Below are positions 3,049 to 60,377 of a stretch of 64,000 bases of DNA, piece by piece. Numbering within the stretch: the stretch's first letter is position 1; each line of letters starts with the position of its first letter. The notes below the pieces were generated by a model. That model did no database searches. It was not told the DNA's origin and was given only the letters and a program-made list of their open reading frames with translations. Made by a program: the position numbers and the translations under genes. Source of the stretch: Thermanaerothrix daxensis (GTDB taxonomy: Bacteria > Chloroflexota > Anaerolineae > Anaerolineales > Anaerolineaceae); the NCBI RefSeq assembly GCF_001306145.1, contig NZ_LGKO01000002.1, forward strand, positions 1,116,001 through 1,180,000, read 5' to 3'.

Positions 3049-4548
3049 ATGGTACCGGCGCGTAATGAGGAGACAGGTAATGGGGTCATTGCTTTTGTAG
3101 TCTTTGGGGTAACGGGTGATCTTACACGGCGTAAGTTAATTCCAGCGCTCTATGAACTGGCAATCAGCGGGCGCCTGCCTCAACCCCTGTATATCCTTGG
3201 GTTTGCTCGGCGGGATTGGAGTGATGAGTTCTTGCGAGAGACCCTGCGCCAGGCGGTTCTGGAGCATGCTCGCACAAAACCGATTAGCATGCCAACTCTA
3301 GAGCGCTTGCTGGCAAATGCTTATTATATCCGTTCAACCTTTGAGGATTTAGAAGGATATCATCGCCTGGCAACAATGCTCAAATCCCTGCGTGTGGATC
3401 ACGTGTTATATTACTTGGCCACTCCTCCCGAAGAGTACGTAACCATTGTGCAACGCATTGGGGAGGTGCGCCTGAACAAGCGAGGGAACGGCTGGACACG
3501 CATTGTGATCGAAAAACCCTATGGGAATGATCTGGAGTCGGCTCAGGCTTTAGAGGCTGAGGTGCATAGCGTCTTTTCAGAGAAGCAAGTGTATCGGATT
3601 GATCATTATCTTGGTAAGGAAACTGTCCAGAACATTCTGGTTTTGCGCTTTGCCAATGCCATCTTTGAGCCTTTGTGGAACCACAAGTATGTAGATCACG
3701 TACAAATTACTGTCGCTGAAACTGACGGAATTGGCACACGAGCCGGTTATTACGACCGTGCGGGTGTAATCCGGGATATGTTCCAAAATCACTTGCTCCA
3801 GTTGCTCGCCTTAACGGCCATGGAAGCTCCTTGGGCCTTTAATGCGGATGCGGTTCGTGATGAGAAGGTCAAAGTGTTGAAAGCCTTACGTCCACTGCGA
3901 GGCAAAGAGGCGTTGGCGAACACGTTTCGGGCTCAGTATGTTTCGGGGTTTATTGAGGGACAACGCGTGCCTGGTTACAAAGACGAACCGGGGGTACCGG
4001 CAAATTCGGTCACCGAAACTTTTCTAGCCGTGCGTCTTTTTGTGGATAACTGGCGCTGGGCGGGTGTGCCTTTTTATCTGCGCTCGGGTAAGCGCTTGCC
4101 AGTACGTTGCACTGAGGTTGTCATTCAGTTCCGTCAGATGCCCCTCTCGCTTTTCAACTGGCACAACGTAGCCGGTGAAGCCCCCAATGCTCTGGTTTTA
4201 CGCTTGCAGCCCAACGAGGGCATTGCACTTGAATTCGGTGCCAAAGCACCGGGTCCAGTAAACCAGATCACGCCGGTCAAACTGGAATTCAGTTACCAGG
4301 AAACTTTCGGTGTGCAACCACCGGAGGCGTATGAGCGGCTTCTTCTGGATGCTCTGCTGGGAGATGCCACACTGTTTACTCGCTCGGATGAGGTGCTGGC
4401 GCAATGGTCGTTCACGTCAGAAATTCTGAAGGCATGGCAAGAATATCCGGTGCGCAACCTGCCCGTCTATGAGTCAGGAACATGGGGACCACCAGGTGCC
4501 GATGATTTTATTCGACAGGATGGCCGGGCGTGGCGAAATCTGGTATAA
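3049..4548 (+). CDS. zwf: Glucose-6-phosphate 1-dehydrogenase
   Basis: Full-length (499 residues) NAD(P)-dependent glucose-6-phosphate dehydrogenase, first enzyme of the oxidative pentose phosphate pathway. The N-terminal dinucleotide fold has [13 protein letters not shown] (GxxGDLxxRK). The catalytic signature [13 protein letters not shown] follows at about 182-194, with the EKPYGND loop before it, and [10 protein letters not shown] in the C-terminal half is also conserved. The start has a good ribosome-binding site (GGAGGT at 3038-3043). No 6-phosphogluconolactonase or gluconate dehydrogenase gene lies next to it. It converges with the zinc-ribbon gene, with only 3 bases between stop codons. 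Confidence 0.95.
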
Positions 4549-57081: not shown

Positions 57082-57155
57082 GGGCGGATAGCTCAGTAGG
57101 TTAGAGCGCCTCCCTTACAAGGAGGAGGTCATGGGTTCGAGTCCCGTTCCGCCCA
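57082..57155 (+). tRNA. tRNA-Val (anticodon TAC)
   Basis: Cloverleaf: acceptor GGGCGGA with TCCGCCC, D-arm GCTC/GAGC, anticodon stem CCTCC/GGAGG with loop CTTACAA (anticodon TAC), T-arm ATGGG/CCCGT with loop TTCGAGT. CCA is not encoded. Reads GTA and GTG codons. Confidence 0.95.
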
Positions 57156-57180
57156 CTCAACTTGGTGAGTTATTTTTAAC
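57155..57180 (+). terminator. Weak hairpin terminator of tRNA-Val
   Basis: ACTCA (57155-57159) can pair with TGAGT (57166-57170), followed by TATTTTTAAC. The stem is only 5 bp, so the call is weak. The element overlaps the -35 of the promoter for the fluoride riboswitch. Confidence 0.4.
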
Positions 57181-57190
57181 AACTTATACT
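57162..57190 (+). promoter_or_regulatory. Promoter of the fluoride riboswitch / MutS-like operon
   Basis: TTGGTG (57162-57167), 17-base spacer, and TATACT (57185-57190). The predicted start at about 57195-57197 coincides with the first base pair of the aptamer, so the transcript would begin directly with the riboswitch. Confidence 0.6.
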
Positions 57191-57194
57191 TGGT

Positions 57195-57270
57195 GGCGAT
57201 GAGGCTCGCCGTAAGTGTCGGTATGACTAATAGCCTCTACTTGAACGGTTGGTTCAGTAGAGGCTTTTTT
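57195..57270 (+). promoter_or_regulatory. Fluoride riboswitch (crcB motif) with overlapping terminator
   Basis: The aptamer matches the crcB consensus closely: stem GGCGA (57195-57199) with TCGCC (57206-57210), loop TGAGGC, GTAAGT joining segment, stem GTC/GAC (57217-57227), then TAATAGCCTCTAC (57228-57240), whose GCCTC pairs with the loop GAGGC to form the pseudoknot. A terminator GCCTCTACTTGAAC/GTTCAGTAGAGGC (57233-57264, one bulge) followed by T6 reuses the same GCCTCTAC, so fluoride binding should prevent termination. Same sequence layout as the Thermotoga petrophila crystal-structure aptamer. Confidence 0.92.
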
Positions 57271-57342
57271 GTTGGGTTATTGTGACGAATGTTTAATCTT
57301 GAAAACTTAGGAAATTTTTAGCGCTTCTGGAGAATAACAGAG

Positions 57343-58875
57343 ATGGTCTGGACTAGCATGCTTTTCCCAACAGGTGCAGTGGATGAAATACCCAATGTCA
57401 TCTCAAGGCCCGATTTTTTTGAGGATCTGAACCTTGGGCAGGTGATTGATGCCATCACAGAACAAAAACAGGAATATGATCTAAAACCGTTTTTCTATTT
57501 GCCTTTGCATGACATTGAAGTTATCCGTTATCGCCAGGAGATCTTCAGGGATCTTGAAAACGCAAATACACTGAATGCCATCAAGACTTTTGCAGAGAAG
57601 ATATCTCTGGTTCGTAGATATCTGAACCTGGCCCAAAAGCTGTATTACAAGCGCCAACAAGAAGGATGGTTCCTGGAAGCCGCTGTGGCGTATTGTCAAG
57701 CTGTTAGTGGCTTGGTTGGGGATCTTGAGGGAGCACCTTTACGATCAAGAGGATTTTTGGATTTCCAGACTTATCTGACCACCTACGTCGCTTCTCCCGC
57801 TTTCCGCTCGCTCCATGAAGAGGCGCGGGCTCTGAAACATGATTTGGCTTCCATCAAATATTGTGTGATCATCAGGGGGAACTGGGTGGGAGTTCGAAAA
57901 TATGAATCTGAGATTGATTACAGTAGTGAAGTGGAACGCACTTTTGAAAAATTCAAACAGGGGGATACTAAGGGTTACCGAATTGATCTCCCCATTCTCT
58001 CGGGTGTAAGCCATGTAGAGGCTCAGATCTTAGATTGTGTGGCAAAGCTGTACCCGGACATTTTCAAAAGAGTGGAGGCTTACTGCCTTAACCACCAGAA
58101 CTTTGTTGACCCCGTCATTTCGACCTTTGACCGCGAAATCCAGTTTTTTATCTCCTATATCGATTTTATGGCAAACCTGGAGGCAAAGGGACTTAACTTC
58201 TGCTACCCTCAGCTAACCAAGACTAAGTCCATTCATGCAAAAGACGCTTTTGATATTGCTCTAGCCCACAAACGGTTGTCTGAGCCCGGCCTCGTGGTTC
58301 CCAATGATTTTTATCTGGAAAGAAAAGAAAGAATTATTGTGGTTTCTGGGCCTAATCAGGGTGGTAAGACAACCTTTGCAAGAATGTTTGCTCAACTTCA
58401 TTATCTGGCAAGTCTAGGATGCCCGGTACCGGGTACAGAGGCGACGCTCTTTCTTTACGATCAAATCTTCACACATTTTGAGAAAGAGGAATCCGTTCGT
58501 AATCTGCGCGGAAAACTGCAAGACGATCTGGTGCGCATCCATGCCATTCTCGAGGAGGCAACTTCAGAGAGCATTCTTATATTGAATGAAGTTTTCACTT
58601 CAACCACCCTGAACGATGCAATATTTCTCAGCAAGGAAGTTCTTAAGAGGGTGATAAGCCTGGATGCTTTCTGCGTGTTCGTTACTTTTATTGATGAACT
58701 ATCCACCCTGAGCGAACAAACGGTGAGCATGGTGAGTACGGTTGTGCCGGAGAATCCGGCTTTGCGCACATTTAAGATTGTGCGTAGGCCCGCTGATGGA
58801 CTTGCGTATGCTATTTGTATTGCTGAAAAATATCATCTCACCTACGACCTAATCAAGGAGCGGATCAAAGAATGA
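57343..58875 (+). CDS. MutS-like ATPase, first of a pair under fluoride riboswitch control
   Basis: A 510-residue protein with the MutS core and ATPase domains but no mismatch-recognition (domain I) or connector. The N-terminal part has LPLHDIEVIRYRQEIFRDLE, as in MutS-like proteins where a DxxTIxYRQxV segment opens the core; the ATPase has Walker A GPNQGGKTTFARM at 336-343, FTHFEKEESVRNLRGKL (the MutS FTR..GA.D region), and Walker B ILILNEVFTSTTLNDA, with Asn instead of the usual Asp. A purine-rich TGGAGAATAACAGAG precedes the start. The next gene overlaps it by 4 bases. Confidence 0.85.
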   Translation: MVWTSMLFPTGAVDEIPNVISRPDFFEDLNLGQVIDAITEQKQEYDLKPFFYLPLHDIEVIRYRQEIFRDLENANTLNAIKTFAEKISLVRRYLNLAQKLYYKRQQEGWFLEAAVAYCQAVSGLVGDLEGAPLRSRGFLDFQTYLTTYVASPAFRSLHEEARALKHDLASIKYCVIIRGNWVGVRKYESEIDYSSEVERTFEKFKQGDTKGYRIDLPILSGVSHVEAQILDCVAKLYPDIFKRVEAYCLNHQNFVDPVISTFDREIQFFISYIDFMANLEAKGLNFCYPQLTKTKSIHAKDAFDIALAHKRLSEPGLVVPNDFYLERKERIIVVSGPNQGGKTTFARMFAQLHYLASLGCPVPGTEATLFLYDQIFTHFEKEESVRNLRGKLQDDLVRIHAILEEATSESILILNEVFTSTTLNDAIFLSKEVLKRVISLDAFCVFVTFIDELSTLSEQTVSMVSTVVPENPALRTFKIVRRPADGLAYAICIAEKYHLTYDLIKERIKE

Positions 58876-60377
58876 AAGCCCATTTAATGTTTCGCGATCA
58901 GGATTTTGATCCTCTCGCGCCTTTGCCGATCCATAGCCCGGATTTAATTCATGATCTTGAGCTGGAGGTCTTGTTCAATGCAATGGCACGCGGGGATAAA
59001 TTTTTGTATGAAATCTCAAAGGCGGCCGTATTATCAAGCCTCAAGGACGTTGACTCGGTTCTATATCGGCAAGAGATCTTAAGGGATTGCTTGGAGCATT
59101 CCTCGGTGATCCGGGAGATCTACCAGATTCTCATTGAGGCAATTGAGCGCAAACGGCGCAGTTGGTTGGGAATCTTTACCCATTACCCAAGTGGTGTTCT
59201 CAGCGGAGCTGTAGATATTATTTCGATGTTCATACCCTCGCTTGAGCAACTCCGAAAGATTGCAGATAAGCACATGGGCATGTTTCACTCAGAAGGGCTG
59301 ACACGTTTTTTTGCCATGCTCCAAAGCGAGTTGAGTGATGAGTATCTAAGCATGGTCAAGTATCATCTTCAACAGTTGAAGTTCCCCAGGGGTGTGTTGA
59401 TCAGTGCTGAATTGGGCATGGGAAATGAGGGTATGAATTACACATTACGCCTTCCCAATACCAAAAACAAGAACTGGATCAAAGAAGCTCTCAGTAAAAA
59501 ATCTCCCACATTTTCCTTCACAATTAGTGAAAGAGATGAGGCAGGGGCACGCGTGCTAGGAGCCTTAAGAGATGTGGGAGTCAGTTCATGTGCCAATGCG
59601 TTGGCTCAGGCTGCAGAGCACATTGAGAGTTTTTTCAACATGCTCCGTACGGAGCTGGCTTTTTACCTTGGATGTATCAATCTCAAGGAACAACTTGAGC
59701 AAATAGGTAATCCAATCGCATTTCCCGTTCCTGCGGTCATGGCCGAACGAAAACATAATTTTAAAGGACTTTATGATGTCAGTTTGGCCTTGACGATGAA
59801 ACGAGAGGTTGTTGGTAACGATATCAACGCTGATTCCAAAGACCTGATAATGATTACTGGGGCCAATCAAGGAGGTAAATCAACATTTCTTAGAAGCATT
59901 GGGCTGGCCCAATTAATGATGCAAGCAGGTATGTTTGTTCCGGCTCAGGAATTTTGCGCCAACTTGTGTAGTGGTGTCTTCACTCACTACCGACGCAAGG
60001 AAGACGCTTTAATGAAGAGCGGTAAGCTAGATGAAGAACTTAGTCGGATGAGCGCTATTGTGGATCGGATCAAACCTAATGCCTTGATGCTGTTTAACGA
60101 GTCATTCGCTTCTACCAACGAGCGGGAGGGATCTGAGATTGCCCGCCAAATTACCAGCGCTCTACTGGATCGGCGCATCAAAGTCTTTTTTGTAACTCAC
60201 CTGTATGAGTTTGCACGGGTATTCTACGAAAAACAGATGGAAAATGCCCTCTTCTTACGAGCGGAAAGAAGTAGAACCTTCAGGTTGCTGTTAGGTGGGC
60301 CATTAGCGACCAGTTTTGGAGAAGACGTATTCAAAAGCGTGTTTGGTAAACAACGGGATCAGGTGTCTATCTCATAA
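58872..60377 (+). CDS. MutS-like ATPase, second of the pair
   Basis: A 501-residue paralogue of the previous protein. KDVDSVLYRQEILRDCLEHS parallels the first; Walker A is ITGANQGGKSTFLRS at residues 330-337, followed by QLMMQAGMFVPAQEF, FTHYRRKEDALMKSGKL and Walker B ALMLFNESFASTNEREGSEIA, again Asn for Asp. As in the first, no mismatch-binding domain. The ATG lies in the last codons of the first gene (ATGA overlap), so both are made together and may form a heterodimer. A terminator-like inverted repeat follows only weakly. Confidence 0.85.
   Translation: MKAHLMFRDQDFDPLAPLPIHSPDLIHDLELEVLFNAMARGDKFLYEISKAAVLSSLKDVDSVLYRQEILRDCLEHSSVIREIYQILIEAIERKRRSWLGIFTHYPSGVLSGAVDIISMFIPSLEQLRKIADKHMGMFHSEGLTRFFAMLQSELSDEYLSMVKYHLQQLKFPRGVLISAELGMGNEGMNYTLRLPNTKNKNWIKEALSKKSPTFSFTISERDEAGARVLGALRDVGVSSCANALAQAAEHIESFFNMLRTELAFYLGCINLKEQLEQIGNPIAFPVPAVMAERKHNFKGLYDVSLALTMKREVVGNDINADSKDLIMITGANQGGKSTFLRSIGLAQLMMQAGMFVPAQEFCANLCSGVFTHYRRKEDALMKSGKLDEELSRMSAIVDRIKPNALMLFNESFASTNEREGSEIARQITSALLDRRIKVFFVTHLYEFARVFYEKQMENALFLRAERSRTFRLLLGGPLATSFGEDVFKSVFGKQRDQVSIS

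Follow-up and report, generated by a model that had tools for sequence, protein, structure and literature searches.

The usual explanations of fluoride resistance are export, spare enzymes and pH control. In Enterobacter cloacae FRM, the available text describes a riboswitch over an operon with the core crcB-gpmA-eno-uspA-ppaC, which is induced 8 to 177 fold and whose deletion abolishes high fluoride resistance (PMC5533749). A 2024 review names exporters, antiporters, pyrophosphatase, HAD and enolase, and the word MutS is absent from its main text (PMC11139923). In the part of a 2010 paper that was available, 'mutS' is printed among the genes that follow the same RNA, the ligand of which was then unknown, and is read as 'DNA repair (mutS)' (PMC2864571). 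That paper alone was found in searches for the fluoride or crcB riboswitch or fluoride resistance together with MutS or mismatch repair, with subscription literature mostly outside the search. Described here is a pair of MutS-like genes, A and B, that lies behind a fluoride riboswitch in a 64,000-nt stretch of the Thermanaerothrix daxensis genome (contig NZ_LGKO01000002.1, positions 1,116,001 to 1,180,000). This stretch is called the window; positions are those of the window, and all features lie on its + strand.

The A and B proteins may be the two halves of a fluoride-induced, asymmetric heterodimeric ATPase that remodels proteins, perhaps Mg enzymes locked by fluoride, a reading that we consider plausible but slightly short of probable. 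The RNA, the operon, the predicted fold, the asymmetry, the single-gene hybrids and the fluoride-island context come from sequence, and from there a fluoride response in vivo is what we infer. The anatomy and asymmetry of the pair, the single-gene form, the spread of the family and its wide coupling to the riboswitch appear to be new, given that none was met in the literature searched, as far as its available text goes.

The leader of the pair lies between tRNA-Val (57082-57155) and gene A. A cmscan search finds the fluoride riboswitch aptamer RF01734 at 57186-57246, matched over model positions 1-64 with 34.5 bits, which narrowly passes the gathering score of 34 and is weak by the standard of Rfam. 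The same aptamer scores 51.7 bits with R1, a model whose 33 Chloroflexota training sites include it, and it occupies the place where relatives have stronger RF01734 sites. The P1 hairpin pairs GGCG (57195-57198) with CGCC (57207-57210), and the pseudoknot pairs GAGGCT (57201-57206) with AGCCTC (57232-57237). Across 84 related sites, that of the window included, 98.9% of the cells in these two helices are paired, and 141 cells are changed on both sides as compared to 48 in shuffles. P1 contributes 31 of these and is the fairer covariation test, given that the 84-site alignment was fitted to the pseudoknot. The R1 and R2 riboswitch models hold 6 pairs, and an automatic fold of their alignment returned the pseudoknot alone.

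The aptamer is followed by an intrinsic terminator (57232-57270), with a hairpin at 57232-57265 and then TTTTTT. The folded stretch (57225-57272) reaches -21.5 kcal/mol with a z score of -5.56, and none of 200 shuffles was as good. The 5' arm of the terminator includes the entire 3' strand of the pseudoknot, and this overlap of aptamer and terminator fits the layout of an ON switch. The earlier note, made by reading the letters of this DNA, had described a fluoride aptamer with an overlapping terminator in this leader, and the RF01734 match above the gathering score and the predicted terminator bear that out. It had also placed a promoter here. The elements TTGGTG (57162-57167) and TATACT (57185-57190) are present with a spacing of 17 nt, but this possible promoter is weak, with a -35 element that agrees with the consensus at 3 of 6 positions, and a promoter scan did not report it.

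Genes A (57343-58875, 510 amino acids) and B (58872-60377, 501 amino acids) overlap by 4 nt, and their products match one another by BLASTP with an E value of 4e-21, as expected for the two related, overlapping ATPase genes of the earlier description. PF00488 (MutS_V) is the sole Pfam family above its cut-off in either protein, at 3.3e-20 in A and 1.4e-20 in B. The mismatch-recognition, connector and Smr domains gave no Pfam match, and of the MutS domains MutS_V alone appears at E <=0.1. Single-chain AlphaFold2 (AF2) models, with a predicted local distance difference test (pLDDT) score of 88.0 for A and 85.0 for B, suggest that each protein consists of the MutS lever and ATPase only, with a degenerate ATPase in A and an ATPase that retains the switch histidine in B. 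As read from these models, the clamp would be shrunk to a hairpin and loop.

The best fold match of the A model is 8omo_A (Z 32.2, 5.3 Å over 460 residues) and that of the B model is 8rz9_A (Z 30.1, 3.8 Å over 367 residues). These best matches extend along almost all of each protein, and for each the best 50 matches listed are MutS-family chains. Most alignments of B to E. coli MutS begin at residue 260-268, with some other chains beginning earlier, and several alignments of A begin earlier as well, at residue 171 in E. coli MutS. Because these start points vary, the absence of mismatch and connector domains, which the earlier note had also claimed, rests on Pfam and on the protein length of about 500 residues. 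Searches of PDB sequences with A and B returned MutS-family ATPases and chance hits, with no near relative. By the PF00488 cut-off and the predicted lever and ATPase fold, A and B belong to the MutS family in the wide sense.

A and B fall below the curated cut-offs for MutS1, MutS2 and KamC. With the MutS1 model PRK05399, A scores 89.6 and B 72.9 bits as compared to a cut-off of 480; with the MutS2 model the scores are 63.6 and 78.2 bits as compared to 400. The predicted lever and ATPase fold is shared with MutS1 and MSH proteins, but A and B have no mismatch or connector match, carry an Asn in Walker B and a replaced 'ST' signature, and the switch His is gone in A. In a tree, the A group and the B group are separate from MutS1 and MutS2; this tree was built from random samples of 25 of 93 A and 25 of 111 B sequences, its bootstrap values are unsettled and its long branches meet, so it was used for group separation alone.

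Mismatch repair was rejected on the curated models and domains. A nucleic-acid clamp, in which the pair would hold DNA or RNA and reduce the damage linked to fluoride, would agree with the MutS fold matches and with the reading printed in 2010 (PMC2864571). It is unlikely, given that 500 residues show no mismatch or connector match in Pfam, that the clamp of the models is a hairpin and loop, that the scores are far below the MutS1 cut-off, and that repair genes are missing from the recurrent annotated neighbours. Anti-phage defence was also considered and rejected, with no PADLOC match for A and two marginal ones for B (E 4e-4 and 8e-4).

With MutS2 the pair shares the core, and several fold alignments of A and B start at residue 1 or 2 of MutS2. 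The MutS2 chain 9a5o_B is among the best fold matches of both proteins (Z 31.1 for A and 29.4 for B), which could suggest that the pair rescues ribosomes, as MutS2 does at collided ribosomes. This is very improbable: the fold matches to MutS and MSH proteins are about as good, A and B have no C-terminal extension, Smr match or other extra domain, and they form their own branch of the tree. MutS2-type rescue was rejected on the lack of an extra domain. Of the earlier suggestion that the pair is a heterodimeric ATPase protecting nucleic acid or ribosomes, the first half stands as a two-protein ATPase that is probably a heterodimer; nothing found points to nucleic acid or ribosomes, with no Smr domain and with neighbours that are metabolic, transport and stress genes.

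The ATPase motifs distinguish A from B. Walker A reads GPNQGGKTT in A (58348-58374) and GANQGGKST in B (59859-59885). In Walker B, where MutS1 has DEIGRGTS, both proteins have NE, as Asn415-Glu416 in A (LNEV, 58585-58590) and Asn409-Glu410 in B (FNES, 60096-60101), so that the exchange of Asp for Asn reported earlier is present in both. The Asn is found in 92 of 94 A sequences, with 2 unread, and in 105 of 111 B sequences, with 1 Asp and 5 unread by the pattern. The GxST ('ST') signature of MutS is exchanged for a GKL-acidic stretch (GKLDEEL-type) in most A and B sequences aligned. The switch His, ATH in MutS, is retained in B as His443 (60198-60200; His in 110 of 111 B), but its place is taken in A by Phe449 (58687-58689; Phe in 92 of 94 A, 2 unread). 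The earlier note overlooked this asymmetry, as well as the hybrids and the presence of CrcB in the operon of relatives.

Eight MutS-like singles of Chloroflexota are similar to A and B in the Asn-Glu Walker B and fall together with them in the tree, separate from MutS1 and MutS2. They differ in being one gene that was not seen paired, with an open frame of 551-665 amino acids and no riboswitch near it; in the genome-wide scan seven of their genomes are without an RF01734 match and the eighth has two sites, located elsewhere. The Walker B Asn as a fluoride adaptation was rejected, given that these eight share it with no tie to a riboswitch. The D693N mutation of E. coli MutS, which introduces the same Asn, reportedly disturbs Mg2+ handling and the nucleotide switch. 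Its structure, 3k0s, has been solved (PMC3848065, from the text available), and this precedent, the Asn in nearly all A and B proteins read and the replaced 'ST' signature would be in keeping with a sensor of fluoride or Mg-fluoride, in which ADP and metal fluoride would occupy the Asn sites and give rise to a signal instead of mechanical work. Such a sensor is improbable, both because the same Asn is found in the eight singles and because the riboswitch already senses fluoride.

The lever of A also has a candidate client-binding loop at its tip, residues 187-216 (57901-57990). This is suggested because the tip is conserved above its lever, with a mean identity of 0.71 as compared to 0.62 for residues 21-300, and because part of it, residues 208-218, has a pLDDT below 50 and is predicted to be disordered. 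The lever tip of B is less conserved than its lever (0.51 as compared to 0.65).

Two genomes encode the family as a single hybrid gene. In one of these (L095), from the same taxonomic family as T. daxensis, the first seven blocks of 50 residues are 36-58% identical to A of the window and the next two are 78-80% identical to B. The other (L093) is built alike, with the lever of A and the ATPase of B, and has a different junction. Both hybrids have a riboswitch directly upstream, at 50 and 123 nt, and neither genome has a second family member among the matches listed (to E 3e-15), in assemblies of 30 contigs for L095 and of 440 contigs for the fragmented L093. On this sequence evidence, the lever of A with the ATPase of B is a persisting form. 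That the hybrids keep the ATPase of B agrees with A as a degenerate ATPase, and, together with the switch His found in B alone, points to B as the engine and A as the recognition arm. The hybrids also provide a simple starting construct for tests.

The family is present in 33 of 301 Chloroflexota genomes (match E 4e-80 or better), with a separate B gene in 31 and the hybrid in the other two. A precedes B in 30 of the 31, and the exception is a contig end. A wider search gave at least 584 relatives, and the best 80 loci span many phyla; A is present in 77 of these, two lacks being contig ends, with none recognised in L177. The overlap of A and B is exactly 4 nt in 67 of the 77 wider loci and in 23 of the 30 Chloroflexota loci that have both genes, where gene calls are mechanical open reading frames and some starts are surely wrong, as in L144, where the riboswitch overlaps the predicted start. 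Because of this overlap, the constant pairing and the asymmetry, A and B probably act as a heterodimer.

The coupling to the riboswitch recurs in relatives. An RF01734 match is found in 27 of the 33 family genomes as compared to 68 of 268 other Chloroflexota genomes, with a Fisher p of 3.5e-10 that is optimistic given that the genomes are related; the genome-wide scan used stricter filters and loses weak sites. For the wider set, 70 loci could be tested, after removal of seven in which A starts less than 130 nt from a contig end and three without A. With R1 on the same strand, 43 loci have the riboswitch no more than 450 nt upstream of A and 9 have it at a greater distance, and in 18 none was found. 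R1 was trained on Chloroflexota sites, some of them located before A; of 14 loci selected by their R1 matches, 13 have a site immediately upstream of A with Rfam's own model as well. Among 32 Chloroflexota loci, the riboswitch is direct (before A or the hybrid) in 19 and further upstream in 6, and none was found in 7. Six of the 19 direct sites are weak (R2 E 0.013-0.33), which leaves 13 of 32 without them, and two of the 6 further sites are weak as well.

Of the 30 best-scoring Chloroflexota sites, taken as one per genome, 7 have A as the first or second gene behind them, making the family a frequent fluoride riboswitch target in this phylum. On plasmids, riboswitches above the Rfam cut-off precede A in E. 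coli, where an antiporter and a universal stress protein (Usp) gene intervene, and in Alicyclobacillus; on a Rubrobacter plasmid an R2 match alone precedes A. This recurrent control across lineages is as expected for a gene of a fluoride-resistance regulon. The aptamer of the window and the coupling in relatives support the riboswitch control of the pair that had been proposed, and the association of pair and riboswitch is frequent in both sets. That the pair is instead a passenger of mobile islands with no role in fluoride resistance would account for its patchy distribution, its plasmids and the loci with no detectable riboswitch; with the riboswitch often directly before A in many phyla and among differing neighbours, it is highly improbable.

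The genes around the pair add to this context. Within 6 kb on each side, or less at contig ends, with clusters named from one or few members, the 80 loci have a major facilitator superfamily (MFS) transporter in 20, a dynamin-GTPase/DUF6062 protein in 18, enolase in 15, CrcB in 10, a Na+/H+ antiporter in 9, Usp in 8, a P-type ATPase in 7, a histidine phosphatase in 6 and pyrophosphatase in 4. Nucleic-acid repair genes are not among the recurrent annotated neighbours, which encode transporters, stress proteins and metabolic enzymes sensitive to fluoride. Enolase adjoins the pair in five loci, before A in L145, L149 and L179 and after B in L158 and L081, and at least two enolase genes are present in all 16 island-enolase genomes tested (all 15 among the 80 loci, plus G058). 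CrcB directly follows B in four genomes of the same order as T. daxensis. E. coli plasmid p027_SK3a has the order antiporter, Usp, A, B, and beside the pair are a P-type ATPase, crcB, gpmA, eno, uspA, a DHHA2 protein, PAP2, CLC and DUF190. The riboswitch-controlled set of E. cloacae FRM (crcB, gpmA, eno, uspA, ppaC) thus also lies beside the pair on this plasmid, whereas Table 1 of the FRM island includes no MutS-like gene (PMC5533749). The role in fluoride resistance suggested earlier is upheld by these recurrent neighbours and by the riboswitch coupling.

The window belongs to a genome of 3.0 Mb that is 97% complete. A search of this whole genome found neither CrcB nor CLC, so that, for these two exporter types, the lack of an exporter noted earlier near the pair extends to the whole genome. 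Encoded elsewhere in the genome is an MFS transporter that carries a CBS domain at its C terminus. It has a weak RF01734 match just upstream (22.7 bits, E 0.003; gene and match together are at L098 8172-9470 and 9491-9567), and for this reason, and because no CrcB or CLC was found, it is a candidate fluoride exporter. The pair could drive or gate an MFS transporter, or the dynamin-like GTPase, of its islands, and thereby export fluoride or a counter-ion. MFS genes are the most frequent neighbour, in 6 loci they lie next to the pair in the same orientation with gaps of -34 to 36 nt, and the L093 hybrid overlaps one by 4 nt. Such a role is nonetheless quite unlikely, given that 60 of the 80 loci have no MFS gene, that MFS transporters usually need no ATPase partner, and that the A and B models and Pfam matches suggest no membrane part, no dedicated membrane prediction having been made. 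That the pair goes with or replaces CrcB was rejected, since CrcB occurs at a similar rate of about 45% in genomes with the family (15 of 33) and without it (121 of 268). CLC is in 19 of the 33, and neither CrcB nor CLC is in 7, some of which are incomplete assemblies.

The reading of the pair as a remodelling ATPase can be set out in steps. By analogy with tested members of the riboswitch family, fluoride with Mg2+ would stabilize the aptamer, and the pseudoknot would then prevent terminator formation, so that A and B are transcribed. The products would form an asymmetric heterodimer of MutS lever and ATPase subunits, with ATP hydrolysed by B, which keeps the switch His, and with A, which has Phe at that place, as a degenerate ATPase whose lever serves as a recognition arm. 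ATP cycling would move the levers and remodel a bound protein. Whether the client is a protein is an evenly balanced judgement; a protein is preferred because A and B lack the parts of MutS that handle DNA, because the genes nearby encode transporters and enzymes that fluoride blocks, and because a MutS-related ATPase named as a reactivase exists. The most likely clients would be Mg-dependent enzymes in dead-end Mg-fluoride-phosphate complexes, with the pair as an enzyme reactivase; enolase-type enzymes are a first guess and an MFS transporter a second, and an enolase-type client in particular is doubtful. Going further, the pair could be the first MutS-fold reactivase for inorganic poisoning, an ATP-driven heterodimer that opens Mg enzymes such as enolase and pyrophosphatase once Mg-fluoride-phosphate has frozen them, which by analogy is conceivable but rather unlikely.

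The reactivase referred to is KamC, a MutS-related ATPase with a 508-position model and the NCBIfam name 'lysine 5,6-aminomutase reactivase ATPase', which by name acts on a metabolic enzyme; no paper on KamC was found in the literature search. A and B match this model weakly, but the most KamC-like protein fetched (L184, 289.7 bits, just below the cut-off) has the usual DE in Walker B.

Several points weigh against the remodelling ATPase. With the KamC model NF052383, A scores 54.7 and B 75.9 bits, far from the cut-off of 300. The 18 loci of the 70 that show no riboswitch upstream with R1 become 17 after a weak direct R2 match in L182, and the 7 of 32 in Chloroflexota remain; on a Rhodococcus plasmid the riboswitch precedes crcB only, with none before A. 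Enolase is missing from 65 of the 80 loci, MFS and dynamin-GTPase/DUF6062 genes are commoner, and the neighbour counts stand without a random-locus control. In the available text of two papers, fluoride operons commonly include enolase and pyrophosphatase in any case (PMC5533749, PMC11139923), so a gene beside the pair need not encode a client. Were the pair to remodel proteins, resistance to an inorganic poison would gain a repair step powered by ATP, and the MutS fold would gain a further role that does not involve DNA; were it a reactivase, cells would repair blocked enzymes besides exporting fluoride and making spare copies.

Other features of the islands can be noted. In T. daxensis, two further RF01734 sites are above the cut-off, and both precede DUF6062 proteins (L098 7283-8146; L099 10298-11725), one of them behind a short protein with no Pfam match. 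DUF6062 recurs in fluoride islands and in one case is fused to the dynamin-like GTPase. The same MFS cluster as that of the T. daxensis MFS-CBS protein has weak R1 matches upstream in L064, L067 and L069 (E 0.02-0.22). One island (L066 and L096, from a single genome, G116) has seven RF01734 matches around an antiporter, dynamin-GTPase/DUF6062, A-B, CrcB and DUF190-CBS. In five genomes of one family (L088-L092), in which no clear fluoride riboswitch was found, a gene of the complex I/Mrp-type proton-antiporter type lies just before A, and a ClpB-type gene, from a Pfam run on L089, lies about 0.5 kb after B; the ClpB-type neighbour would suit a pair that remodels proteins. In L158, S-adenosylmethionine synthetase and an acid phosphatase (1213-1977 and 3641-4375) are near the pair, besides enolase.

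The family is also carried on plasmids. Relatives of B are on 48 plasmid records in PLSDB, 21 of them predicted to be conjugative, with Klebsiella (18), Rhodococcus (6), Citrobacter (6) and Enterobacter (5) the most frequent hosts. They are often annotated as 'DNA mismatch repair protein MutS', and this plasmid-borne family is thereby misfiled. The E. coli version of the family is found in 1 of 5426 complete E. coli genomes.

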